IMG/VR virus record: IMGVR_UViG_3300005617_000625
Location: 1-42,500 of that record
Direction: 5' to 3' (one strand)
Length of the DNA stretch: 42,500 bases
DNA from: a virus
Shown here: piece after piece, positions 11,686 to 38,542 of the stretch
Layout of the letters: the number at the start of each line of letters is the position of its first letter
Position numbering within the stretch: the stretch's first letter is position 1
Made by a program: the position numbers and the translations under genes
The notes under the pieces: generated by a model
Database searches by the model: none
What the model saw: the letters and a program-made list of their open reading frames with translations, nothing else
Told to the model about the DNA's origin: nothing

Positions 11686-13096
11686 GCAGGCTGCCGCTAT
11701 CGAGCTGTTGGCACGCCGTCAGGCCCGCACGCACCTGCTGGACTTTGTACGCTATACGATGCCCGCCTACCAGGTCAACTGGCACCATGCTTACTTAGCC
11801 TCCCAACTGGATTTATTCGAGCAAGGGCACATCAAAAAGCTAATGGTGTTTATGCCGCCGCAAACTGGAAAAAGTCAACTCGTTTCCCGCCACTTACCCG
11901 CCTTCCTGCTGGGTCGTAATCCTGATCGAAAAATCGTTGGTGCTTCCTACTCCAGTGACCTATCCAGTAGTTTCAACCGCGATATTCAACGCATCGTCGA
12001 TGATAACCCGTATTTACGGCTATTCCCGGACACCTACCTCAATCAGTCTAACGTGCGAACTATCGCTCACGGCGGCTACCTGCGTAACTCCGATATCTTC
12101 GAGGTAGTGGGTCATACAGGCTTTTACAAATCCGTTGGCGTGGGTGGCTCCCTAACCGGTACACCGGCTGACATCGCTATCATTGATGACCCGATCAAAG
12201 ATGCCGTGGAGGCGTACAGCACCCGCACGCGGGAAACCGTCTGGCAGTGGTATGATACCGTCCTCAAGACCCGCCTGCACAACGACAGTCAGCAGCTGGT
12301 GACATTGACCCGATGGCATGAAGAGGACCTTGCAGGGAAGATACTGGCCAGCGAAGGGCAGGATTGGACTGTTATCAGCTTCCCAGCCCTCAAGGAAAGC
12401 AACAACGACCCCAACGATCCCCGGCAGATTGATGAGGCCCTTTGGCCGGAAAAGCATTCTCAGGAGCGCATGCAGGCTATCCGCAAGAGCAGCCCTACTA
12501 CCTTTGCCTCCCTCTACCAGCAACGACCTTCCCCTGCGGAGGGTAACCTCATCAAGCGAGCCTGGTTTGATATTGTCGATATGCCGGTATTGACAGCCCC
12601 GCCAACCATTGATTTTGTCTGTGATACCGCCTACACCGAAGATGAGCGCAATGACGAAACCGCCCTCATTCCGTACTTTTTCCATAACAACGACCTATAC
12701 CTAACCGATGCCATCGAGCTCTGGGAGGAGTTTCCCGAACTGGTGAAAAGCATTCCTCCCTACTGTTACTCGAAAGGCTACACCCAGCGGTCAAAATTAT
12801 TCGTAGAACCTAAAGCATCCGGCAAGTCGGTAGTGCAACAGTTGCGCAGGCACAGCACGCTGAACATCATCGAAGACACCCCGCCAAAGGAGGACAAGGT
12901 TACCCGCGTGATGGTCGCTTCTCCTGCGATGGAAGCTCACCGGGTAAAGCTCGTTAAGGGGAGTTGGAATAAGAACTTCCTGGATCGGGTAGGTTTGTTT
13001 CCAAATGCCAAAAACAAAGGCATCGTCGATTGTTTGGTGATGGCCGTAAATAAATTAGAGAAGCCTAAATTTTCAGTTAAGAGCCACAATACCTGA
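11651..13096 (+). CDS. terL: Terminase large subunit
   Basis: A 481-residue packaging motor. The ATPase domain has Walker A PPQTGKS (69-75) and Walker B IAIIDD (175-180), and TLTRWHEEDLAG is the coupling region. The C-terminal RNase H-like nuclease has DFVCDTAYTEDERNDET (D325), LFVEPKASGKS (E386) and a final GIVDCLVMA acid. It cuts concatemers and pumps DNA into proheads. The start at 11651 is chosen to limit overlap with terS; 11615 is also in frame. Confidence 0.95.
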   Translation: MNSFQLSHQVSKQAAAIELLARRQARTHLLDFVRYTMPAYQVNWHHAYLASQLDLFEQGHIKKLMVFMPPQTGKSQLVSRHLPAFLLGRNPDRKIVGASYSSDLSSSFNRDIQRIVDDNPYLRLFPDTYLNQSNVRTIAHGGYLRNSDIFEVVGHTGFYKSVGVGGSLTGTPADIAIIDDPIKDAVEAYSTRTRETVWQWYDTVLKTRLHNDSQQLVTLTRWHEEDLAGKILASEGQDWTVISFPALKESNNDPNDPRQIDEALWPEKHSQERMQAIRKSSPTTFASLYQQRPSPAEGNLIKRAWFDIVDMPVLTAPPTIDFVCDTAYTEDERNDETALIPYFFHNNDLYLTDAIELWEEFPELVKSIPPYCYSKGYTQRSKLFVEPKASGKSVVQQLRRHSTLNIIEDTPPKEDKVTRVMVASPAMEAHRVKLVKGSWNKNFLDRVGLFPNAKNKGIVDCLVMAVNKLEKPKFSVKSHNT

Positions 13097-13101
13097 TCAG
13101 A

Positions 13102-13665
13102 ATGAATTTTAAAATAGCTAATAGCCGCGTTACCATCCCCAACTCCTGGCATTCCGTCAGCCTGGGGCAACTCCTGGCCATCAGGGAAGGAGTAAGCTTG
13201 TCCAACCTGGAGGTACTGGCTATCTTCTCCAATCAACCAGTTTCTTTCTGGCATACGGTCAAAGCGGAAGATGTTGCTACCAAGGTGCTGCCATGCCTGG
13301 ACTGGAGTGAGGAGGATTTTGACTGGAATGCCTTAGAAGTACCAGAGTGGCTGCTGATAAAAAATGACTTCAAACATCTCTGGTTCAGCAAATCCCTTTC
13401 CGTTCCAATGAACCTTGACTTGGAGAGTTACGGTCAGAAAGTGTATATTTCCTCATTGATTGGAAACAAGATGGCTGATAGTGAGCGGGTGCCACTGGTT
13501 TTAGCCGCTTACTTTGAGCCGATTTATTCCGGCTTGCCCTTCAATACGGGAAGGCTGGAAGAGTTTTTGCCGGTTATATTGGCAACGAGTTGTACAGAGG
13601 CTTTACCGATATACAACTTTTTTTTTCGGAAGTTCAGCGCATTGATAATTTCTATGGCCGGATGA
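13102..13665 (+). CDS. Tail assembly chaperone-like protein, upstream frame
   Basis: A 187-residue product in frame 0. The body (VPLVLAAYFEPIYSGLPFNT, then EALPIYNFFF) resembles Bacteroidota phage tail assembly chaperones, the G-type proteins that wrap the tape measure during tail assembly. At 13618-13626 lies a run of nine T, read TTT TTT TTT. After it frame 0 gives only 12 more residues, an unlikely ending, while the -1 frame stays open for 86 codons. Either a programmed -1 frameshift makes a longer G-T-like fusion or a homopolymer error breaks one gene. Confidence 0.7.
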   Translation: MNFKIANSRVTIPNSWHSVSLGQLLAIREGVSLSNLEVLAIFSNQPVSFWHTVKAEDVATKVLPCLDWSEEDFDWNALEVPEWLLIKNDFKHLWFSKSLSVPMNLDLESYGQKVYISSLIGNKMADSERVPLVLAAYFEPIYSGLPFNTGRLEEFLPVILATSCTEALPIYNFFFRKFSALIISMAG

Positions 13666-13886
13666 TCGTCAGTGAATACGATCAGGATGCGGTGCTGGCC
13701 CGGCCGGAAAAGCTGCAACAGTTCGGCAGTATGGCTTTGATTGACGAACTCACGGATGGGGATGTGACGCGGTACGATGAGTTTTACCTACTCCCCCACC
13801 AGCTGGTGATGAGCAAGGTATGGCTGAATACCGAAAGGAATAATTATCGGAGCAGATTGCAGCGGATTAAAAGCGAAAAGAAATGA
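13626..13886 (+). CDS. Tail chaperone extension reached by -1 frameshift
   Basis: Continuation of the 13102 gene in the -1 frame: SEVQRIDNFYGRMIVSEYDQ onward, ending RSRLQRIKSEKK, about 86 residues. The reading is open from 13590, but the only upstream starts are a TTG at 13590 inside the previous gene and an ATG at 13662. Fusion through the T9 run gives a protein of about 261 residues. Its stop overlaps the ATG of the next gene. Both a frameshift product and a sequencing artefact fit. Confidence 0.6.
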   Translation, partial: SEVQRIDNFYGRMIVSEYDQDAVLARPEKLQQFGSMALIDELTDGDVTRYDEFYLLPHQLVMSKVWLNTERNNYRSRLQRIKSEKK

Positions 13887-14053
13887 AAAAGTACTATATT
13901 AATTACCAGCATTCCACTGGAACCGGGCACGTCTACTGGTCTGTGGCCTCCAAGCTTACCGAGGAAGAAAAGCAGAAAGCCATCAGCTTCGTAGAGAAAG
14001 AAGCCGGGTTGAAAGAAGTACGAATCCTGGACTATGTAGCGCATGATCACTGA
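13883..14053 (+). CDS. Small protein (56 residues), unknown function
   Basis: MKKYYINYQHSTGTGHVYWS begins a 56-residue ORF with ATGA coupling to the frameshifted gene and an 11-base overlap with the next. The pattern (aromatic strand, then VASKLTEEEKQKAISFVEKE helix, then a short strand) suggests a compact alpha/beta fold. Codon use matches its neighbours. Function unknown, within the tail/neck gene cluster. Confidence 0.6.
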   Translation: MKKYYINYQHSTGTGHVYWSVASKLTEEEKQKAISFVEKEAGLKEVRILDYVAHDH

Positions 14054-14528
14054 CATCATCACCGACGCACTGCTTACTGTTGGCTTCCAGCCGAATTACA
14101 TTCTATTTGGCTCATTCCGGGAGGTGAATCAGTTAATCGAAACCTTGCCCTTAAAAGCCGTCGACGTCGACAACCCTGATGGAGTAAACATCATCGCCGC
14201 TACTGACCTGTTGTTCTCGGGTAATTCGATGCTGACCCAGTACGGCAATGCCATCGATACGACCCAATTCCGAATCCTGTTTGCCCGAAAGAATCCCGGC
14301 TCCATCGATGTACCGCAACTAGAACGCTTCAACCGCGCCCTGGGAATGCTTACCTATGCCAAACGGTTTGCCCTGGCCCTGAACAATGATCAGCGCACCC
14401 GCGTAGCAAAAGGGTATCTTGATTCGATTCAGTGGGAAGCGGTATATAATTTATTCGATGTGGACATGGATGGGGTGCTGCTGACAGTACCCATTACGGA
14501 AAATATTCCGGTCGTACCGGTGTGCTGA
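14043..14528 (+). CDS. Tail/neck protein, unknown function
   Basis: A 161-residue protein (MITDIITDALLTVGFQPNYI) in the tail module, with a central NIIAATDLLFSGNSMLTQYG and the sequence LNNDQRTRVAKGYLDSIQWE. No family recognised. Position between the tail chaperone and a gp10-like protein suggests a tail terminator or neck role (inference). A TGATG junction with the next gene supports co-translation. Confidence 0.6.
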   Translation: MITDIITDALLTVGFQPNYILFGSFREVNQLIETLPLKAVDVDNPDGVNIIAATDLLFSGNSMLTQYGNAIDTTQFRILFARKNPGSIDVPQLERFNRALGMLTYAKRFALALNNDQRTRVAKGYLDSIQWEAVYNLFDVDMDGVLLTVPITENIPVVPVC

Positions 14529-23874: not shown

Positions 23875-24963
23875 ATGTCTACAGCAATCATTGTACCCGG
23901 TAACCTCACCTTCAACGGCACGGAGGTCCGCAACATTTCGGAAGTGGTGATGCAACGCATCTACACCAAGCCGACGCTCGCCCAGCAAATGACGCTCATC
24001 GGCGGCATTGAGGCCAAAATGCAAATCGCTATCCTGGGCCGCCTCTCCAAGCTCACCAAGCTGGATGCCGGTTGCGGCGTGGGTGCTTCGGCAGGACAGG
24101 TACCTACCTCGGAAAAGTTCTGGAACCCGGTTCGGGCTAAGTTCTGGCTGGAATTCTGCTGGAAGGATTTCGTAGCGACCTTCTTTGTCTATTTGCAACG
24201 CAAGGGCATCCAACGCCCGGATATGACGGGAACCGAAATCCAGGATTTCATTGCCGAACTCCTGCCGGATGCCTTGATTGAAGACTTTATGCGCATCACC
24301 TGGTTTGGCTCGACGACGGCAACGCTGGTCGGAGCCGGCTCGGGTGATGCCAACATTACCGCTACCTCTTCCATTACCGATTACAACCTGATCGATGGTT
24401 TCTGGAAGCAGCTCATTGCCATCGCCGCTACCGCCAAAATAGCGGTGAATGCTACGGGCGGTATCGGAGCCAGTAACGGGCAGGCTACTTTTGCGCTACA
24501 GGATTCCAACCTGACGGCGGCGGGGGTCGTTGCGGATCTGGACCTGATGAAATATTCTGCCGATTACCGGCTGAGGGATGTACCCAACGCCGTCTATCAG
24601 GTTACCCAATCAGTGGCCGATAAGGTGGAGCAATACCTCAGGGGCTTTGCCAACATCGAAGCTTCTTACATGACCCTGGAAAACGGGCTGAGGGTGGCTA
24701 AGTGGAACGGCATCCCGGTAGTTCCCAATTCCTTCTGGGACCGCACCATCCGGGCCGACTTTTCCAACGGCACCAAGTACGACAAGCCGCACAGAGCCGT
24801 ATTGACCACCCTGGACAATTTGCAGGCGGGTGTCGACGACACCACAGCCATCGGGGATTTCGAAGTGTGGTACGAGCGTCAAACGGAGAAAGTAAACTTC
24901 CGGGGCGGCTACATGGTCGACGCCAAAGAAATCGAAGATTATATGGTTAAAACCGCCTATTAA
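23875..24963 (+). CDS. Major capsid protein
   Basis: A 362-residue protein (MSTAIIVPGNLTFNGTEVRN). It follows the prohead protease directly and is the right size for an HK97-fold capsid protein. The segments PTLAQQMTLIGGIEAKMQIA, GLRVAKWNGIPVVPNSFWDR and the C-terminal WYERQTEKVNFRGGYMVDAK are typical of Bacteroidota phage capsids. It forms the icosahedral shell. The family match is by context and pattern. Confidence 0.82.
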   Translation: MSTAIIVPGNLTFNGTEVRNISEVVMQRIYTKPTLAQQMTLIGGIEAKMQIAILGRLSKLTKLDAGCGVGASAGQVPTSEKFWNPVRAKFWLEFCWKDFVATFFVYLQRKGIQRPDMTGTEIQDFIAELLPDALIEDFMRITWFGSTTATLVGAGSGDANITATSSITDYNLIDGFWKQLIAIAATAKIAVNATGGIGASNGQATFALQDSNLTAAGVVADLDLMKYSADYRLRDVPNAVYQVTQSVADKVEQYLRGFANIEASYMTLENGLRVAKWNGIPVVPNSFWDRTIRADFSNGTKYDKPHRAVLTTLDNLQAGVDDTTAIGDFEVWYERQTEKVNFRGGYMVDAKEIEDYMVKTAY

Positions 24964-27469: not shown

Positions 27470-28126
27470 ATGGCGGAAATTCTCTTGCTCAAGGCTGATT
27501 TCAATCCCTTCAAATTCCTGTCAACCAACCTGGATTTTGAATCGATCAGCCCTTATATCCTGGAAGCGCAACGAGCGGACCTGGTAGACTTGCTTGGAAT
27601 GCCGATGTACTACGCCTTCTGGACCGGGATGAATCCGGTAAGCCCGGCACTACCCTTTCAGATCTGGACTGACCTGCTCAACGGGGTAGACTATCTTAAC
27701 GATCAAAGCCAGGGCATCCAGTTCTACGGGGTGAAGCCCTACCTGGTCTACCGGACCTTTGCCCGGTTCTTAAACAAAAGCCAGGTGCGCATGACGCGCG
27801 CGGGTGCTGTGAGCAAGCGAACCGATGAGAGTGAGTACATCGATAAGGATACCCTGGATAAACTTAGAGTTGAAACCGACTCTTTTGCTGAACTCTATAA
27901 ACAGAACATCATCACTTTTCTGAATGCCAAAAGAACGGATTACCCCCTCTGGCCTTATATGGAATGCCGAGCCCGCTATGGGCGCAAAGGCTTTCGGATT
28001 CGCTCGATTAGTTCTACTCAGGACTATTATTGGTCCGGGGGCTATAAGAGTGGGTGCTGTGGCTTGGAGGACTCAGCTATTATCATTAACAACATTTATT
28101 CCGGCGGGAGCGGTTATGTCGAATGA
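27470..28126 (+). CDS. Head-tail connector protein (DUF6712-like)
   Basis: A 218-residue protein, MAEILLLKADFNPFKFLSTN, with EAQRADLVDLLGMPMYYAFW and a C-terminal Tyr/Gly-rich tail (YYWSGGYKSGCCGLEDSAII). This pattern is the one I associate with the DUF6712 family of Bacteroidota phage and prophage connector-like proteins. It probably forms a ring below the portal. It begins two bases after the portal stop and ends in an ATGA overlap with the next gene. Confidence 0.65.
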   Translation: MAEILLLKADFNPFKFLSTNLDFESISPYILEAQRADLVDLLGMPMYYAFWTGMNPVSPALPFQIWTDLLNGVDYLNDQSQGIQFYGVKPYLVYRTFARFLNKSQVRMTRAGAVSKRTDESEYIDKDTLDKLRVETDSFAELYKQNIITFLNAKRTDYPLWPYMECRARYGRKGFRIRSISSTQDYYWSGGYKSGCCGLEDSAIIINNIYSGGSGYVE

Positions 28127-28824
28127 TTGACTTCAGAAGTTTGATGCTGCTTAGGATCCTGACGGACGCTTTCATTGCGGCTAAGGGTGCTCAATTGACC
28201 TGGGAGGAACTGGATGAAAACCAAAAGGCGCTGGCCGATACGCTGGCCAGGCTGGAATACAATGCCGTGTACGGAGCCATCGCTTACAATCCGGCTACGG
28301 CTTATACGGGTGGACAGACGTACTATGTCAGCTATTCCGGCAATATCTGGAAGTTCATCAGTGGGTCAACCCAGACGGGCATTACGCCTGGCAGTAATGC
28401 CTTGGTTTGGGAATTGTCTTCAATTGGGGCTTATGCGCACGCCCACGATACGGATTTTCAGTTGGTTTCTTCAGGAGGTATTCCCGTAACTGCGGATCAG
28501 ATATTGGCTTGGATTAGTGGTGGTGGGGGTGGAGGGGGTGCTTACGGTATCGAACCGCAAACCGTGATTTTGTCAGCTACGGCTATTACCGCTCCTGCAG
28601 CGGGCTTTGAAAAGCTGGTGCTGCTCAATGTCGCTTCCCTGGCTCCATACACGGGCTTACCGGCTCCAACGACCTCGGGTAAAGTATACACCCTGAAAGC
28701 CAATGATACCTATGACGCCTCCTTTTCCGTGGTTGTGGACGGCATACCGGCCGGCCAGGTGGTTGTGGCATCCGGGTCAACCATGCGCATCGTGGACCTG
28801 GGCACTTATATAAAAATCGGATGA
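28123..28824 (+). CDS. Tail fibre-like protein with carbohydrate-binding-like segment
   Basis: A 233-residue protein. The AYNPATAYTGGQTYYVSYSG NIWKF stretch (about 46-70) resembles the short aromatic segments of chitin-binding or fibre-adaptor modules. A run of seven Gly (about 132-139) separates it from a C-terminal beta-domain ending in STMRIVDLGTYIKIG. It is ATGA-coupled to the connector and the fibre gene. Likely a fibre attachment protein at the tail tip (inference). Confidence 0.55.
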   Translation: MIDFRSLMLLRILTDAFIAAKGAQLTWEELDENQKALADTLARLEYNAVYGAIAYNPATAYTGGQTYYVSYSGNIWKFISGSTQTGITPGSNALVWELSSIGAYAHAHDTDFQLVSSGGIPVTADQILAWISGGGGGGGAYGIEPQTVILSATAITAPAAGFEKLVLLNVASLAPYTGLPAPTTSGKVYTLKANDTYDASFSVVVDGIPAGQVVVASGSTMRIVDLGTYIKIG

Positions 28825-31304
28825 AAAAGTTACTTGCAATTTTCTGTTTTCTGTCTGCGGTTTTCAGTTGGGTGGAAGGACTGGCTCAGTCCCATGCGGA
28901 TACGCTGATCGATCAACAGATCCCGGCCTCTACAACGGGGAGTGTGCCCTACAAGAAACTCAATCCGGTCCTCCACCAGATGATTCTAAGGGCGGATAAT
29001 CCCCAATACGCCAGCCCCTTCAACCACGTCGACAGCTACGGCTCGGCTGAAATCGTCGGCGGCTCTATCGAATACGACAGCATCCGGGCCACTTTCGGAG
29101 TCAATAGCTACGGTCCCCTCTCCGGTAGTATCGCTCTCTCACCCGCTGATCCAGACAGCACGAAGTTCAGAGTAGATCTCCTGGTCATTAATTCCACCGG
29201 CACCATTGCCGTCCTGACCGGTACCGCAGGGCAATCACCCATCGAATCAGCTTTCTCGGCAAGCACGCAACTACCGCTGTACCGCATTTTTGTAACGACG
29301 GATGGTTTCTCCCTGGAGCCTTATTCGGGTGCCATTGTGCAGGCAGCTACCTTAACGGAAGTAGTAGCGGGGCTATTGACGAATAAGTATGTCAGCCCTT
29401 TGACCTTGCACCAATATATGATTCCCTACGTGTATGAGGTGCTATCGGGCATTACGGGCGGGAATAACCTGGTGAACGGCACCGGAACGAATTCGTTACG
29501 TCAGCTTGGCTCGACTTCCTCCACGGGCATCAGTGCCGTCTCCCTGGGTTCGATTAATGTCGTTACCGGTGATTATGGCACCGCTACCGGTAGGGGTAAT
29601 ACCGTGAGCGGATTCGCTGCAACGGCCCAAGGGGCATTTAATACGGCCAGTGGTACGGACGCTCACGCGGAAGGTAGTAACACTTTTGCCAGTGCTCAGT
29701 ATGCCCACACGGAAGGGGCTTCTACCCAAGCCTCCGGTTCAGCAGCCCACGCTGGCGGACAAGGACAAAGCACGCGACTGATTATAGCCAGTGGCGACCA
29801 TAGTTTTAATCATTCTTACAATTCCACCTCTCAGGTTTCCGGGCATGGGGTGCTAGCCGACAACGCGGCAATTCTGGGGGGGGTGGATCATCATATTCCC
29901 TCCACTTCGCCCCGTTCGGTTATTTTAGGAGGAACCACGATTTCTATTCCCGCTTCCCGTCCGGACGAGGTTTGGGTGCCGTCGCTGGCTATCAACACCG
30001 CGCCAACCACCGATACTGGAACCCTGAACGCTTTGGTATACGATCCTACTACTAAGCTGGTTATGCAGCGGGCGATTAGCGGCGGCGGCGGCACCACTTC
30101 CCCCCTCACTACCAAAGGTGACCTCTGGGGCTATAGCACTACCAACGCTCGTCTCCCGGTTGGAACAGATGGCTACGCTCTATTAGCTAATTCCTCCACT
30201 TCCACTGGCCTGTTGTGGACGGACCTCAGTAGTCTCTACCTGACACCGACCCAATTACAAAATACTGGCTGGACATTTACGGATTATCAATACCACAACA
30301 ACACTTTTTCGATGTGGACTGATGGAGCCAGCAATAGTCTCCAAATTGATGTGAATGGATTTGTGAACACTTACGGGGCTACTGCTGGACACACGGTAAG
30401 TTTTGGCACTCCAACCGCTTTCCGAAATATTACTTTTCCCGATGCTGACGGGACTCTTGCATTACTAAGCGATATAACCGGTGGGGGAGCCTTGCCCTCC
30501 CAAACCGGCAACTCCGGCAAGTACCTGACCACGAACGGCACGGCGGCCAGTTGGGGCACGGTATCCAGCGGCACCACTTCCCCCCTAACCACGAAGGGTG
30601 ACCTCTATACGTATTCAACCACGCAAGCAAGGCTCCCAGTTGGTACGAATGGCTATGCGCTGCTGGCAAATTCTTCTCAAACAACCGGCTTAATCTGGTC
30701 TGACTTATCCACGGTTTATTTCCCCCTCTCCGGCGGCTCCATCACCGGCACGGGAGGTGCTGGTTACATCGGACTGATTCCGCAATCATCGGCACCCAGC
30801 ACGCCGGGTAGTGGCTTTCGGCTCTATGCTACCAGTGCGGGAAAACTAGCCTGGAAGGGCACCAACGGCTTCGTTCGGACTTTCGACGGCACGGCAAATA
30901 CGGCAGACAGGAGCTACAAGCTACAGAATGCGGATATGACATTGGCGGATTCGGCAGCAGTGGCGGCTAATACCAATGCCATCACCCTTACCCAGCAATC
31001 CCACACCACGGGTACAACCGTCACGATAACGAGCGCTTCAGGGCCGCTGTGGCTGATTATCAATCCAGCCTCGGTATTGGCATCGGTTACCGTCACCCTA
31101 CCGCTTACCCCGGTAGACGGACAGCGGGTGGAAATTAGCTTCGGCGGCACGATGACCACCGGCACCGTAGTAACTGCGCTTACTATTTCGCCCAACACGT
31201 CACAAGCGATCCTTCAGGCTACTACGCCGTCGACAGCGGAAGCCGGGGAAGTGATTGCTTACCGCTGGAAAAGTTCAGTATCCAAATGGTATCGACTTAA
31301 CTAA
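28821..31304 (+). CDS. Tail fibre with signal peptide, YadA-like head repeats and internal duplication
   Basis: An 827-residue protein. Residues 1-23 (MKKLLAIFCFLSAVFSWVEG, then LAQ) are a classical Sec signal peptide, unusual for a virion protein. Residues about 240-320 hold YadA/Hep_Hag-type repeats (NTASGTDAHAEGSNTFASAQ). Residues about 425-475 and 585-635 are a duplicated module beginning SPLTTKGDL and ending near LLWTDLSS or LIWSDLST. It may be a host-binding fibre or a host-derived surface protein picked up by the phage. Confidence 0.7.
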   Translation: MKKLLAIFCFLSAVFSWVEGLAQSHADTLIDQQIPASTTGSVPYKKLNPVLHQMILRADNPQYASPFNHVDSYGSAEIVGGSIEYDSIRATFGVNSYGPLSGSIALSPADPDSTKFRVDLLVINSTGTIAVLTGTAGQSPIESAFSASTQLPLYRIFVTTDGFSLEPYSGAIVQAATLTEVVAGLLTNKYVSPLTLHQYMIPYVYEVLSGITGGNNLVNGTGTNSLRQLGSTSSTGISAVSLGSINVVTGDYGTATGRGNTVSGFAATAQGAFNTASGTDAHAEGSNTFASAQYAHTEGASTQASGSAAHAGGQGQSTRLIIASGDHSFNHSYNSTSQVSGHGVLADNAAILGGVDHHIPSTSPRSVILGGTTISIPASRPDEVWVPSLAINTAPTTDTGTLNALVYDPTTKLVMQRAISGGGGTTSPLTTKGDLWGYSTTNARLPVGTDGYALLANSSTSTGLLWTDLSSLYLTPTQLQNTGWTFTDYQYHNNTFSMWTDGASNSLQIDVNGFVNTYGATAGHTVSFGTPTAFRNITFPDADGTLALLSDITGGGALPSQTGNSGKYLTTNGTAASWGTVSSGTTSPLTTKGDLYTYSTTQARLPVGTNGYALLANSSQTTGLIWSDLSTVYFPLSGGSITGTGGAGYIGLIPQSSAPSTPGSGFRLYATSAGKLAWKGTNGFVRTFDGTANTADRSYKLQNADMTLADSAAVAANTNAITLTQQSHTTGTTVTITSASGPLWLIINPASVLASVTVTLPLTPVDGQRVEISFGGTMTTGTVVTALTISPNTSQAILQATTPSTAEAGEVIAYRWKSSVSKWYRLN
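30088..30720 (+). repeat. Direct in-frame duplication inside the fibre gene
   Basis: Segments starting at 30088 and 30568 (480 bp apart), each about 150 bp, both begin CGGCACCACTTCCCCCCT and encode SPLTTKGDLxxYSTTxARLP VGTxGYALLANSS. The third-position divergence shows that the duplication is old and kept at protein level. Confidence 0.7.
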
Positions 31305-31305
31305 A

Positions 31306-33222
31306 ATGACAAAACAGGAAATCCTTACCCTGATAAACGGGGCGGTAATCAACATCGCACCTGGTGTGAATCCCCAAACCATCTTCGATGCTGCCGCCGC
31401 TGGTAGTTACATTCGCTTCCTTCCCGGCACCCACACCTGGGGAATAAACTCCAATCGGGCGATCTTGAATGTCACCAAGTCGATGGCTATCGAGCTAATG
31501 GCTGGAGCAGTCCTGAAACTAGCAGACAATACGACAGCCTTGGAAGTAGCAGGGGAAATTACCACCAACCAGGGACCTTACAAGACGCTGGATGATATGA
31601 CCATCGGGGCAACCAGCAATTACGACCTGGGCCTGGGAGCTATCTCCTACTTTGTTCAGATTGACGGAGTTTCCAGCCCGAATACCTATACCTGGGGAAC
31701 CTATACGGAGGCTGGTGTACAAACAACAATTGGCTCGGGGGTATCAATAACCGGCTCCGAACAAACCCTGGCTCACGGGGTGAAAATCAAGTTCAACGCC
31801 ACTACCGGGCATTCCCTGAACAGCGTATGGTACATTGCCTATGATGGGCCGGAATCTTATGGCATCAGAGTAGGAACCGGAACCCATACCACCTACATCG
31901 AGAATGTACACATTTTTGGCCAGGGTTTGATTGACCTTAATCTTCAGAACAACATTCAGCCGTCCAACCTGGTTGCCACCACTTCGGCCTGCGTACTGTT
32001 TCACGGGCGAGTACGGTATTGCAGCGTGACTGATATTTCGATGCAGAATGGTATGCGCTCAGTGATGATGTACGGAGAAAACAACGGTACTTACCTGCAA
32101 GGCGGGTTAACCCAAGGCGGAACCGACTTCGCGGCGGAATACATCGATGTATTACGAACGAAAACCTACTCGACTTCCATTCTAGGCAGTGGAATCCTAA
32201 TGGGCCACCCCTCCCACCGGGGAAGCCTGCGCTTTATTCGGGTGAATAACAACTTCATCCAGACCACTGCGACCCCCATCGAACCCAACTACCAGTGTCA
32301 GGATTACCAGGTAATTGGCAACCTCTGCGACGGTACAGTGGCAGTGAGAGGGATACATTGCTGGCGAAAATCCATCAATGGCACTATCACCGGCAACCGG
32401 ATTGTCAACGCGCCTAACGCGGTCGCTGCCGTAGAAATATCCGCACCAGGTATCTGGGAAACTGGCCAAAATATCTATACGGATGCCAGCAATATTCTTT
32501 CGGGGCCAGTTCAGGGTTATCTCTATGCGAGTGATGTGTTGGGCCTACTGGGGCCTACCAGTTATTTCATCGCAACCTCCGGGGCTTATGCTGCCTCCTA
32601 TCCGCTTACCCAAGCCACTAACTTACAACCCGTAACGCTTTGGGCTGACCAGAGTGGTGCCCGGCACTCGGCTGTACCACCTCTGTTAACCGATGCGCCA
32701 ACCTACAAGTCTTCCACGAGTGCACTGACTTTCGCCGCCAATCGGTACATGCCTCATAATTTCGGCACCTCAGACCCAGTTGCTATGACGATTGTGGCAA
32801 AGATTCAAGTGCCCAACATCGCCACTGCCAGCAACACCTTTTGGCACCACCGTTCTGAAACCACCCGGTTAATCCAATTAGGGGTCAGTTCTAGCAATGT
32901 AACGCTTCAACTCCGGAGTTCGGGTAACGTGCTTCAGACCGTTATGAAAGCGGCAACCGCCAATAACACGTACATGAAAATTATTGCCGAGTTCGATAAG
33001 GTAGGCAACCTGCATCGGCTGTACGTAGATAATCTTACTTCTCCTGGCACGAATACCACCAATTTCGGGGCAGAAACCTTCACCTCGTCGATTCAGAGTA
33101 TCGGGGCTTATAATATTGCCGGTAGCATTACCCGAACCTTTACAGGTGATATTCAAATACTTGCCGTTTACGACAAGTTGTTTAACGATACCCAAAAACA
33201 AGCCATTCTGGACGCGTTGTAA
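31306..33222 (+). CDS. Tailspike-like protein: right-handed beta-helix plus LamG-like domain
   Basis: A 638-residue protein from ATG 31306 (MTKQEILTLINGAVINIAPG). The start ATG follows the fibre stop by one base. Residues about 30-400 show parallel beta-helix/pectate-lyase-like pattern (GTHTTYIENVHIFGQGLIDL; INGTITGNRIVNAPNAVAAV). Residues about 430-638 resemble a LamG/concanavalin-type domain (SSTSALTFAANRYMPHNFGT to TGDIQILAVYDKLFND). It likely binds and cleaves a host surface polysaccharide. No signal peptide is present. Confidence 0.7.
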   Translation: MTKQEILTLINGAVINIAPGVNPQTIFDAAAAGSYIRFLPGTHTWGINSNRAILNVTKSMAIELMAGAVLKLADNTTALEVAGEITTNQGPYKTLDDMTIGATSNYDLGLGAISYFVQIDGVSSPNTYTWGTYTEAGVQTTIGSGVSITGSEQTLAHGVKIKFNATTGHSLNSVWYIAYDGPESYGIRVGTGTHTTYIENVHIFGQGLIDLNLQNNIQPSNLVATTSACVLFHGRVRYCSVTDISMQNGMRSVMMYGENNGTYLQGGLTQGGTDFAAEYIDVLRTKTYSTSILGSGILMGHPSHRGSLRFIRVNNNFIQTTATPIEPNYQCQDYQVIGNLCDGTVAVRGIHCWRKSINGTITGNRIVNAPNAVAAVEISAPGIWETGQNIYTDASNILSGPVQGYLYASDVLGLLGPTSYFIATSGAYAASYPLTQATNLQPVTLWADQSGARHSAVPPLLTDAPTYKSSTSALTFAANRYMPHNFGTSDPVAMTIVAKIQVPNIATASNTFWHHRSETTRLIQLGVSSSNVTLQLRSSGNVLQTVMKAATANNTYMKIIAEFDKVGNLHRLYVDNLTSPGTNTTNFGAETFTSSIQSIGAYNIAGSITRTFTGDIQILAVYDKLFNDTQKQAILDAL

Positions 33223-33229
33223 AAAAACA

Positions 33230-35182
33230 ATGAAAAAACTCCTTCTCTTTATTCAGCTTGCAAGCGCGTCGTGCATACAGCTCTGGCTCGCCTGGCCAGC
33301 TATGGGGCAACAGTACCTCTATACCCCAGCGGAACTAACCGTATGGCAAAGCAGAGCCACTAGCGGGCCTTACAAAAACAAAAGCGACGCTCAGGCTAAT
33401 AGCCCGGCGGATTGGAATCGGATCGTCAGTAATGCCGCATCTTTCTACAACAATCAATCGGCGGAAATCTGGTCAGGTTACACGGAGGTTGGCTGCATTC
33501 CTCAGAACACCACCACGAAAACCTACGAGCCGGAAGCCTACGCCTACAAATTGCAGGATGCGGCCTTGTACGGACTGGTAACCGCTAATTCCTCCTATCG
33601 AAACGCCGTCAAGGCTGCCGTGCTGGCACAGATTGCAAAGCCGGGCGTAAACTTTGCTGATGGTTCGAGATGGTGTATTGGTGCCGGAGGGGTCAATGAT
33701 GTGAATCCCGGATTCATTATCGCCGAGTGGGTCACCCGTTTACTACACGCCTACCTCTATACCTACGACCTATACAGTGCTGGCCAGCATACCACGATCG
33801 CGAATTTCTTTGGCCCGGCCGGAACCTACTTTGCCGGACAAGTGGATTACGCCCTCAACCCGCTTTTTGTTAACCGCCCAGGGGGGAATTATACCTTAGC
33901 TGGCGTAGGAGCCAGTGCCACCCCGCGCGGGCTGATTGATTATTTCGGCCCTTCATATGTGACGGTCAATGGTTATTTCAACAACCGTCGCTACTCGATG
34001 ATCTATACCGTAGCCGAAATTGGCTGGCTGGTGAACTCCACTGCGTTGAAGAATTCAGCAGCCCTCTACTTCAAGCAATACCTTCAGTACGCTATTTATC
34101 CCGATGGTAGAAATGTCGAAACAGAACGCAGTGTAGGCGCAACAGGAAAACCGGAAAAGGGTACGCAGTATATGGCTGGGGCAACCGCTTTGGCTATTGC
34201 CGTAGCGGATGTATTTGCCCGACACGGTGATTACAGTCTCTATGATTATGTCACCACGGTAGGGGCTTTCGGCAGCCAGGGTGCGCCAACGGGTGCGGGT
34301 AATGAACAGTTTGCAACAGGAAAGAGTCTGAAATTTATGATGTACTCGCTGGCCAGGTATTGGGATGGTACTCACCTGCGCTGGGGTACTGATCAGGCGA
34401 GCTTGAGCACGGATCAAGGCTACATTATGGACGGGGTATTCATTCCCAACCTGATCTACTACGAAATGGATACCTGGTTAGCTCTGGGTAATTTGTACTA
34501 CCAGGACTCTTACATTCGTAAGGCGTATCTGAGGCAATATGCGGGTGCGCGGCCTTACAATCAGAATCCGACCACAGCAGGGCCCTATGCGGTTTGGATG
34601 GGGCCAGGCGCCCCCTTTTCGGGAATATTGTTTCAGCACGGGCAAAGAGAGTATGACGCGAGCAACCCGTTTTTGGCCGTAACACCGGATCCCCCCATTG
34701 ATACGCTCTCGGTTGATAGCCTTCCAACTCCTTCGCCTCGTAGGAATGTTGCACTCAATAAGCCGGTTTCGGGTACGGTGCAATGGTTGGATAATTATGC
34801 TTACTATTTGACGGACGGAGTGAAGGACAACTTTGCGCAGCGGTATGTGAGTGCAGAGAATAATGCATTCGACACCCTTGACATCGATCTGAAAAGTAAT
34901 TGTTCGATAGACACAATTAAGATTTATACCGGTAAACAGGTAAGCCTTCCGGTGAATGTGAGTAATCCGGTAGAGTCATTTCGGGTACTGTATTATAATA
35001 GTGGGGTATGGACTCAGGCTTATGCTACTACCAGTAATGCCAGCAATATTGTATTGATACCGGTAAGCATTGCTTCGGCTTCGAAGCTGCGCATTATCGG
35101 AAGGGATATTGATGCAGGAGGGGAATTAAGGAAGAAGTTTACACGGCTCGTGGAACTGGAGGCTTATGGCACTACCCTGTAA
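33230..35182 (+). CDS. Secreted alginate-lyase-like enzyme with F5/8 type C domain
   Basis: A 650-residue protein from ATG 33230. A signal peptide ending in LAWPAMGQ spans residues 1-27. Residues about 28-490 begin YTPAELTVWQSRATSGPYKN and resemble the alpha/alpha-toroid alginate lyase group. Residues about 505-650 (RRNVALNKPVSGTVQWLDNY to FTRLVELEAYG) are an F5/8 type C/discoidin domain (CBM32-like). It would degrade exopolysaccharide outside the cell. Virion-bound depolymerase or a secreted biofilm-loosening enzyme are both possible; the signal peptide favours secretion. Confidence 0.7.
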   Translation: MKKLLLFIQLASASCIQLWLAWPAMGQQYLYTPAELTVWQSRATSGPYKNKSDAQANSPADWNRIVSNAASFYNNQSAEIWSGYTEVGCIPQNTTTKTYEPEAYAYKLQDAALYGLVTANSSYRNAVKAAVLAQIAKPGVNFADGSRWCIGAGGVNDVNPGFIIAEWVTRLLHAYLYTYDLYSAGQHTTIANFFGPAGTYFAGQVDYALNPLFVNRPGGNYTLAGVGASATPRGLIDYFGPSYVTVNGYFNNRRYSMIYTVAEIGWLVNSTALKNSAALYFKQYLQYAIYPDGRNVETERSVGATGKPEKGTQYMAGATALAIAVADVFARHGDYSLYDYVTTVGAFGSQGAPTGAGNEQFATGKSLKFMMYSLARYWDGTHLRWGTDQASLSTDQGYIMDGVFIPNLIYYEMDTWLALGNLYYQDSYIRKAYLRQYAGARPYNQNPTTAGPYAVWMGPGAPFSGILFQHGQREYDASNPFLAVTPDPPIDTLSVDSLPTPSPRRNVALNKPVSGTVQWLDNYAYYLTDGVKDNFAQRYVSAENNAFDTLDIDLKSNCSIDTIKIYTGKQVSLPVNVSNPVESFRVLYYNSGVWTQAYATTSNASNIVLIPVSIASASKLRIIGRDIDAGGELRKKFTRLVELEAYGTTL

Positions 35183-35650: not shown

Positions 35651-36214
35651 ATGATCAAGCGGAAATTCTTTTTCGACACGGTAAACAAGCTGCTCTTTAA
35701 AGGCAAATTGTCCCCTAGCGCCTGGGTAGGAATGGAATTAATGCTGACGTATTGGGAAGCGAATCCCCGACCGGTGGGTGGACCTCAAGACATTCGCTGG
35801 CTAGCCTATATCCTGGCCACTACGATGCATGAGACGCAGCGCACCTTCCAGCCTATTGAAGAATTCGGCAAAGGGCATGGCAAAAAGTACGGAAAGCCGG
35901 ATCCCCAGAACGGACGTATTTACTACGGAAGGGGTTATTGCCAGATCACCTATCGAGTGAATTACGAGAAGTTCGGCAAGCTATTAGGAATTGACCTGGT
36001 GAACCATCCTGAACTGGCATTAGTAGAAGAATACGCCTTGAAGATTATTTTCATCGGGATGGAAAAGGGGCAGTTTACGGGCCGGAAATTAGCCGACTAT
36101 TTCAATGCCAAAAGCGAGAACTGGTACAAAGCGAGAAGAATAATAAACGGTGATGACTGCGCATCTGCCATTGCCGAGTACGGAAAGGTGTTTTACCAGG
36201 CTTTGCAGGGATGA
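35651..36214 (+). CDS. Endolysin, GH19 chitinase/lysozyme-like
   Basis: A 187-residue muralytic enzyme. TTMHETQRTFQPIEEFG has the HET catalytic Glu (E61) and a second acidic pair (E70, E71). YYGRGYCQITYRVNYEKFGK and LLGIDLVNHPELA are the GH19 substrate-groove signatures; FTGRKLADYFN follows. It hydrolyses peptidoglycan glycan strands to release progeny. No signal peptide is present, so it needs the holin at 37144. It starts the lysis cassette 35651-37677. Confidence 0.9.
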   Translation: MIKRKFFFDTVNKLLFKGKLSPSAWVGMELMLTYWEANPRPVGGPQDIRWLAYILATTMHETQRTFQPIEEFGKGHGKKYGKPDPQNGRIYYGRGYCQITYRVNYEKFGKLLGIDLVNHPELALVEEYALKIIFIGMEKGQFTGRKLADYFNAKSENWYKARRIINGDDCASAIAEYGKVFYQALQG

Positions 36215-36815: not shown

Positions 36816-37147
36816 AAGCGTCGCCAGAGAAACCCGAAAAGGAGTGGAGCGAAAGGTGGTGGGGGAAGCTGCTGTTAGGGGGAGGTTCGGTACTGGTAGC
36901 CCTGTTCGTTTATAAAATGGTGAGTGTAGCCAACGATGTAGCGGAAATCCCGGCGATGAAAACCAGAATCAAGGTACTGGAATTGCAAGCAGCTCGGATG
37001 AAGCAGCGCACTGATTACGACTCCATCCGGGTAGTGCTGCTCAGGGAACAGAAGGAAGAAAGCCGGCAACGGAGTGAAAGGTTTGATTCTTCCCTGATAG
37101 AAGGAGATCGCCGGTTTGACAAAGCTTTAATTCGTAAACTTAAATGA
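36812..37147 (+). CDS. Inner-membrane spanin-like protein
   Basis: A 111-residue protein from GTG 36812. One transmembrane helix (about 17-35, GKLLLGGGSVLVALFVYKMV) is followed by a long charged coiled coil (MKTRIKVLELQAARMKQRTD and on). N-in anchored with a periplasmic coiled coil is the architecture of inner-membrane spanin Rz-type proteins. No embedded lipoprotein Rz1 was found. It is ATGA-coupled to the holin-like gene. Confidence 0.55.
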   Translation: MKASPEKPEKEWSERWWGKLLLGGGSVLVALFVYKMVSVANDVAEIPAMKTRIKVLELQAARMKQRTDYDSIRVVLLREQKEESRQRSERFDSSLIEGDRRFDKALIRKLK

Positions 37148-37677
37148 TTATGACCCTTACTAACAAAAGACAAATTATTTTCATTGCCGCGTTGCTCATT
37201 AGTATCCTGATACTGACCACTCGGCTATTTGCTCAGGAACCGGACAGTACTGGCACCGGTGGCCCTACGCCTATTCCAATTTTCACCAGCGTATGGAGTA
37301 TGCTGCTGTTTCTGTTCAACGTGGCGCTGATCCCTTTTTTGGTAGATAAGTTGGCACCGGTGACCTGGAAAAGCGGCACTAAAATACTGGTACTGGTTGG
37401 GCTGTCGGTTGCCGCATCGGTGCTGCAATTGATGAGTGAAGGACGGCTGGAGTTCCGTAATTTAGCTCAGTCAGCCCTTTCCTTGCTAGGCACAATTCAA
37501 ATATATTATAATCTGTTCGTAAAGAAATTTAAACTCGAAGGCCCCAAGGAACAGATTATGGATCAAGCTAAAGCCCAGATCGCACACCAGGTAGATGCAC
37601 TATCCCATTCAGAGGCGAAGGCCATCTTAGACCCGTTAACCCCCGCTGTGATTCAACTTGCGGCTGAGGTGAAATAA
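37144..37677 (+). CDS. Holin-like membrane protein
   Basis: A 177-residue protein with a first hydrophobic helix (IIFIAALLISILILTTRLFA) that may be a signal anchor, then two or three more (VWSMLLFLFNVALIPFLVDK; ILVLVGLSVAASVLQLM), and a cytosolic charged tail (GPKEQIMDQAKAQIAHQVDA). Multi-span small proteins next to an endolysin are usually holins, which release the endolysin at a set time. It is the last gene of the lysis cassette. Confidence 0.6.
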   Translation: MIMTLTNKRQIIFIAALLISILILTTRLFAQEPDSTGTGGPTPIPIFTSVWSMLLFLFNVALIPFLVDKLAPVTWKSGTKILVLVGLSVAASVLQLMSEGRLEFRNLAQSALSLLGTIQIYYNLFVKKFKLEGPKEQIMDQAKAQIAHQVDALSHSEAKAILDPLTPAVIQLAAEVK

Positions 37678-37852: not shown

Positions 37853-38542
37853 ATGAAAACAATACAATTAACGAAAGGTCAGGTGGCCTTAGTGGATGAT
37901 GAAGACTTTGAACGGGTGAATCAATTCTATTGGCAAGCTGGATATGAGAAGACAACGCATAAATATTATGCAAAGGGACATGTTAATGGTAAGCCGGTTT
38001 TGATGCACCGGTATATTCTAAGTATGACAGACCCTAAAGTTTTAGTAGACCATCGCTTTCATGACACGCTGGACAACAGAAAAGAGAATTTGCGGGTTTG
38101 CACCAATTCACAAAATAGTGCTAATTCAAAAAAGCAGCAATCTGACCGTTCCAGCAAATTTAAAGGGGTTAGTTGGCACAAAGTAAGGAAGAAATGGTGC
38201 TCTGTAATAGGCCATGGTAAAGCAAGCTTTCATTTAGGGCTTTTTGAAACGCAGGAGGCGGCCGCGTTAGCTTATAATTTAAAGGCTAAAGCGCTATTCG
38301 GCGAATTCGCTTTACTGAATGAACTTACCGAAGAAGAAATGACGATTGCTCTTTCACACCCTCCTAAAATAGAGTCCTCTAAATTTAAGGGGGTGTCTTG
38401 GCATCGGAAGGCACGCAAATGGATGGCACAAATCTCTATAAAGGGACAGCACCATCATTTAGGACTTTTTAGCGATGAAATGCAGGCCGCTAAAGTATAT
38501 AGTGAAGCAAAGGCTGCAACAAAGAGAGCGGAAATCAAATGA
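37853..38542 (+). CDS. Homing-type HNH endonuclease with two AP2 domains
   Basis: A 229-residue protein. Residues about 1-98 carry the HNH fold: LMHRYILSMTDPKVLVDHRF, then DNRKENLRVCTNSQNSANSK. Two AP2-type DNA-binding domains follow, at about 100-158 (SSKFKGVSWHKVRKKWCSVI) and 175-225 (SSKFKGVSWHRKARKWMAQI), nearly repeats of one another. Free-standing HNH-AP2 nucleases are selfish elements in phages that nick target genes of rivals. It has its own promoter and terminator, making it a self-contained insertion after the lysis cassette. Confidence 0.85.
   Translation: MKTIQLTKGQVALVDDEDFERVNQFYWQAGYEKTTHKYYAKGHVNGKPVLMHRYILSMTDPKVLVDHRFHDTLDNRKENLRVCTNSQNSANSKKQQSDRSSKFKGVSWHKVRKKWCSVIGHGKASFHLGLFETQEAAALAYNLKAKALFGEFALLNELTEEEMTIALSHPPKIESSKFKGVSWHRKARKWMAQISIKGQHHHLGLFSDEMQAAKVYSEAKAATKRAEIK

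Follow-up and report, generated by a model that had tools for sequence, protein, structure and literature searches.

Sec signal peptides on a tail-fibre-like and a lyase-like protein in the virion module of a phage likely to infect Bacteroidota

The late module and its fibre, spike and lyase-like genes

The window, meaning the whole stretch of DNA that was analysed, is a 42.5-kb virus record from IMG/VR. Its late module runs from terminase and tail genes through a Clp-type head protease (22610), a major-capsid-like protein (23875) and a portal protein (26284) to a DUF6712 protein (27470), the 28123 gene, a tail-fibre-like protein (28821), a spike-like protein (31306), a lyase-like protein (33230) and a GH19-type endolysin (35651). 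The position of the portal gene places the fibre/lyase cassette in the virion module, and both this location and fibre-type repeats were found for the window genes. The relevant features are as follows.

23875..24963, + strand: major-capsid-like protein, 26% identity to a protein of Bacteroides phage BS-TP3
26284..27468, + strand: portal protein (phrog_11226)
28123..28824, + strand: late gene that overlaps the fibre start (ATGA)
28821..31304, + strand: tail-fibre-like protein, 827 aa, with Sec signal peptide (ORF, phrog_32934, phrog_25468)
28821..28886, + strand: fibre signal peptide, 22 aa, proposed cut GLA/QSH, mature start Gln23
31306..33222, + strand: spike-like protein, no signal peptide; ATG 31306 preferred over TTG 31255
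33230..35182, + strand: lyase-like protein, 650 aa, with Sec signal peptide and a C-terminal F5/8-type C (NedA-like) domain at aa 527-622
33230..33307, + strand: lyase signal peptide, 26 aa, proposed cut AMG/QQY, mature start Gln27
35651..36214, + strand: GH19-type endolysin after the cassette (Pfam PF00182, phrog_181)

The host is likely a member of the Bacteroidota, judging from the relatives of four late proteins. Portal relatives come nearly all from phages of Bacteroides, Phocaeicola and Parabacteroides and from flavobacterial phages. The capsid and protease show matches of 26-30% to Bacteroides phage BS-TP3, and together these relatives point to such a host; the nearest terminases include those of Flavobacterium phages. 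The Bacteroidetes promoter motif occurs once in the window against one expected match and is thus not enriched. No host locus was found in the genome contigs searched, and no close relatives of the lyase-like protein, portal or terminase were confirmed in the viral and genome contig collections searched. In the BS-TP3 record, a SusD fragment (5-1493) lies directly 5' of the phage Clp-protease gene, as do host-type SusC/SusD genes in one contig (L022, 4706-6491), with a gap of 229 bases in both; in another contig (L020) this position is held by a tape measure gene. The Sus genes may mark the edge of a prophage or a junction in the assembly.

The fibre ATG and the stop codon of the 28123 gene overlap. 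A spike ORF beginning at TTG 31255 would overlap the fibre gene, while ATG 31306 sits just 3' of the fibre stop and is probably the true start. With this start, the spike lacks a signal, as the sequence-only reading had stated; it matched no Pfam family and gave no confident PDB match. The lyase-like gene begins 8 bases past the spike stop at ATG 33230, which was taken over a TTG at 33116 that would give a longer ORF.

The naming of the 33230 product as a lyase, made from the sequence alone, is not established by any family model. The label derives from distant matches to phage proteins that carry the annotation pectate lyase or structural protein. The sole Pfam match is the C-terminal F5/8-type C domain, with no catalytic Pfam or NCBIfam match to a polysaccharide lyase family (alginate, pectate or chondroitin), and a PDB search with the single sequence and a five-sequence profile matched no solved lyase. 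An AlphaFold model of the protein alone reached a pLDDT of 33 and was not used. Matches by tblastn were obtained in Cellulophaga phages phi18:3, phi46:3 and Nekkels, and gp086 of phi18:3 shares 21% identity with the window lyase core (pairwise E 4e-9). An FNNR motif and a D-x4-E-x2-R motif, among others, are invariant across five lyase relatives and are candidates for the active site; a motif search for further relatives returned none beyond those known from Cellulophaga phages.

The fibre shares a repeat with signal-less fibres of non-Bacteroidota phages. In viral contigs, its relatives shared nothing beyond this repeat, and their source phages lack such signals. T7 gp17 and other signal-less fibres (L005-L009) resemble the window fibre in repeats and presumed role, but ordinary tail fibres and tailspike depolymerases are synthesized and assembled in the cytoplasm and have no signal peptide. 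Similar repeats are also found in a signal-bearing fibre, that of Tenacibaculum phage Larrie (BLASTP E 0.003).

Signal peptides and their proposed cut sites

The claim that both the fibre and the lyase-like protein begin with Sec signal peptides was confirmed, coordinates included. The N-termini read MKKLLAIFCFLSAVFSWVEGLA before QSHAD in the fibre and MKKLLLFIQLASASCIQLWLAWPAMG before QQYLY in the lyase-like protein. Detection was rule-based rather than by SignalP, and a Q-rule substrate of signal peptidase I was defined by a positively charged n-region, a hydrophobic core, small residues at -3 and -1, and Gln at +1. By these rules, both proteins qualify as such substrates, provided that one charge (Glu19) is tolerated in the c-region of the fibre, whose cut is missed by the strict detector; the relaxed detector was given its own null. 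A Sec-like N-terminus with Gln at +1 appeared in 0.09-0.14% of null N-termini (shuffled or internal-Met), a chance of about 0.1% per gene, and in 0.5% and 1.4% of shuffles of the first 40 residues of the fibre and lyase-like protein, respectively. The proposed ATG start codons of both genes are preceded by A-rich sequence (A = 0.47 and 0.41, against a mean of 0.34 for the genes), in contrast to their internal start candidates, which are A-poor upstream (0.06-0.18).

The Q-rule, meaning Gln at +1, is specific to Bacteroidetes and covers on average 71% of signal peptidase I substrates per species (PMC5837995). Since a merely hydrophobic N-terminus does not favour Gln at this position, the signals are argued to be cut. 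On these sequence features, they are very probably functional, and export of both proteins is well supported, the Q-rule cut sites being a sign that a Bacteroidota signal peptidase I does process them. Export through T9SS was dropped, as no C-terminal sorting domain matched among NCBIfam models at E 0.1.

Signal-bearing fibre cassettes in other phages

Records for Cellulophaga phage phi18:3 list gp085, gp086 and gp087 as structural on experimental MS/MS, and all three carry a Sec signal followed by Gln. The same pattern is seen in gp091-094 of phi10:1 and gp101-104 of phi19:1, also MS/MS-recorded virion proteins with Sec signals. In these three phages, signals occur in 11/11 MS/MS-recorded fibre-cassette proteins, with Gln at +1 in all but gp104 of phi19:1 (Lys; 10/11), and in 0/15 MS/MS-listed core virion proteins of the stretches examined. 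The corresponding one-sided Fisher value of 1.3e-7 overstates independence because modules are shared, the 11 cassette proteins representing about 7 distinct N-terminal modules. Virion status was taken from database notes rather than primary data, and with outer-membrane vesicles or secreted proteins liable to be present in virion preparations, detection by MS/MS is no proof of attachment. The neighbouring phi10:1 gp095, annotated as a pectate lyase (L012, 25389-26879), has a Sec-like N-terminus followed by Gln (CFS/QGK) and lies outside the MS/MS list.

These cassettes resemble that of the window in having adjoining fibre and lyase genes late in the virion module with Sec signals, and gp086 of phi18:3 shares a lyase-like core with the window protein. 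They differ in that all of their proteins bear signals, while the window has a signal-less spike; nor are its N-terminal modules homologous to the Cellulophaga ones. In the latter, the first 56-118 residues, signal included, form an N-terminal module common to Cellulophaga phages of three families and joined to differing C-terminal parts. The particle-attachment part of fibres is usually N-terminal.

Among genes encoding at least 250 aa, a signal followed by Gln was found in 33/112 from the window, eight Cellulophaga phages and Larrie, located in the fibre region. None was detected among 229 such genes of other Bacteroidota phages, a set comprising crAss001, phi14:2, phi4:1, phi18:2, Bacteroides phages BS-TP3 and ARB25, phages of Maribacter, Flavobacterium, Polaribacter and Nonlabens, and three IMG/VR contigs, or among 52 from T7, lambda and four non-Bacteroidota contigs. 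Gln occupied +1 in 33/37 large Sec-like genes of the signal-type phages, compared with 0/1 in other Bacteroidota phages and 0/0 in controls. Because phages were assigned to the signal-type or the other group post hoc, these counts describe a pattern rather than test it. The trait recurs in several flavophage lineages, but crAss-like and many other Bacteroidota phages lack it. It comes and goes with fibre modules, since the closest virion-module relatives of the window (L019, L020 and L026) have fibres without signals.

Signal peptides on phage lyases have been noted before. Bartlau and colleagues (2021) described them for the pectin and chondroitin/alginate lyase-type proteins of Ingeline and Nekkels (PMC8776804); in the passages on these lyases, they are not linked to virion proteomics and fibres are not treated. 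Matrishin and colleagues found Q-rule genes in Porphyromonas gingivalis phages (Nixviridae), which likewise code for proteins with Bacteroidetes Q-rule signals, although these uncharacterised proteins were interpreted as host-surface modifiers rather than fibres (PMC10367356). A survey of phage DGR proteins reported no signals (PMC6199706). In the open-access literature searched, a scope that leaves out the original Cellulophaga proteomics paper, no report of MS/MS-verified tailed-phage fibres as Sec substrates was found.

A possible export route and its alternatives

The sequence-only reading had offered two explanations, secreted enzymes or recent captures from host surface proteins. Its premise of export is well founded, but the dichotomy is incomplete, as three Cellulophaga phages have signal-bearing fibre and lyase-type proteins among their recorded virion components. 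A signal peptide therefore does not imply an enzyme secreted apart from the virion. The explanation preferred here, held at somewhat better than even confidence, is that the fibre and lyase-like proteins are receptor-binding and glycan-degrading virion proteins that are exported by Sec, cut by signal peptidase I and joined to the particle at or after lysis. A virion role, which is favoured by the proteomic notes on relatives and would oblige a virion protein to cross the inner membrane, is a better guess than a purely secreted one. Weighing against the preferred explanation are the distance of the lyase relative, the unrelated N-terminal modules, possible carry-over in virion preparations, and the missing signals both on fibres of the closest virion-module relatives and on the lyase-type protein of Maribacter phage Panino.

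According to this model, which offers the simplest route, both proteins would be synthesized late in infection and exported through the host Sec translocase. Cleavage by signal peptidase I would expose Gln, which host glutaminyl cyclase is expected to convert to pyroglutamate, the predicted N-terminus in virions. The proteins would then fold in the periplasm and dock, at lysis or later, onto the tails of particles set free from the cell. Assembly of the capsid, portal and tape measure would take place in the cytoplasm, where the signal-less spike may also attach. The signals, their Q-rule cut sites and the virion records of similar signal-bearing proteins in relatives are observed, whereas for the window phage we infer cleavage, a periplasmic stage and late attachment.

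Extended to several lineages of Bacteroidota tailed phages, the proposal becomes one of two-compartment assembly, in which heads and tails are built in the cytoplasm while receptor-binding fibres and depolymerases are exported by Sec; host signal peptidase and glutaminyl cyclase would process the latter, and docking would take place outside the cytoplasm at or after lysis; this broader form is tentative, with a chance somewhat short of even. The analysis suggests that some tailed phages export fibres from the cell interior ahead of particle attachment. Tailed-phage fibres are generally taken to be assembled in the cytoplasm, and virion fibres that also serve as Sec substrates would contradict that view. 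To our knowledge, no tailed phage that adds Sec-exported fibres after lysis has been described. If correct, the proposal predicts a docking step after export, folding in an oxidising compartment and blocked N-termini in virions. It also bears on annotation, as signal-bearing phage lyases, treated as auxiliary metabolic genes in PHROGs (phrog_27797), may be parts of the particle.

The foremost alternative is that both proteins are secreted or surface-bound accessories outside the virion, with a lyase that clears capsule or biofilm either ahead of lysis or following it, and a fibre-like protein that coats or alters the host surface. The signals on both proteins suit this view, as do the carbohydrate-binding type of the lyase C-terminal domain and the reading of P. 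gingivalis phage Q-rule proteins as exported modifiers (PMC10367356). A precedent is offered by lambda lom, flanked by J and the side tail fibre gene, whose product is likewise exported and encoded among tail genes; Lom, however, is an outer-membrane protein and not part of the virion, unlike the window proteins as interpreted here. This alternative is nevertheless rather unlikely, given the virion records of equivalent signal-bearing proteins in three phages and the placement of the window genes within the virion-lysis order, where the fibre start overlaps an upstream late gene. Moreover, no T9SS sorting model matched, so that crossing of the outer membrane would still depend on lysis.

It is improbable that exported molecules coexist with cytoplasmic forms that start internally (lyase ATG25, fibre GTG18 or ATG54) and enter virions. 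Lyase Met25 does lie just ahead of the mature end, and the lyase-type protein of Maribacter phage Panino has no signal and begins at the equivalent point. Yet the internal codons, with their A-poor upstream sequence, do not look like real starts, and the Cellulophaga lyase module has no further Met until far downstream. The Panino gene (L031, 11359-13041) overlaps the next gene (12975-14228) by 67 bases, possibly through a frameshift or misannotation.

Less probable still is recent capture of host surface proteins with the signals as leftovers, which the other half of the earlier either/or had proposed and which found no support. The signals are typical of Bacteroidota hosts, whose glycan enzymes commonly contain F5/8-type C domains. 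Against capture, a search of about 85,000 species genomes, which sees only shared short motifs, yielded no close lyase relative; GC content and codon usage match those of late neighbours, with codon distances of 0.25 and 0.265 inside the 0.18-0.31 range of other late genes; and the signals are kept across several phage lineages. That the N-termini are hydrophobic by chance and unused, a view to which the use of a rule-based detector instead of SignalP lends some weight, is very improbable in the face of the null rate and the prevalence of Gln at +1 in signal-type phages given above.

Two further genes lie downstream of the endolysin. The first (37144..37677, + strand) encodes a membrane protein of the lysis region, whose N-terminus is the third in the window to be Sec-like with Gln at +1 (LFA/QEPDS) and precedes further hydrophobic segments; it may be a holin, or a protein related to one, from which the signal is cleaved. 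The second (37853-38542) encodes a protein with two SKFKGVSWH repeats that by eye resembles an HNH/AP2-type homing endonuclease.
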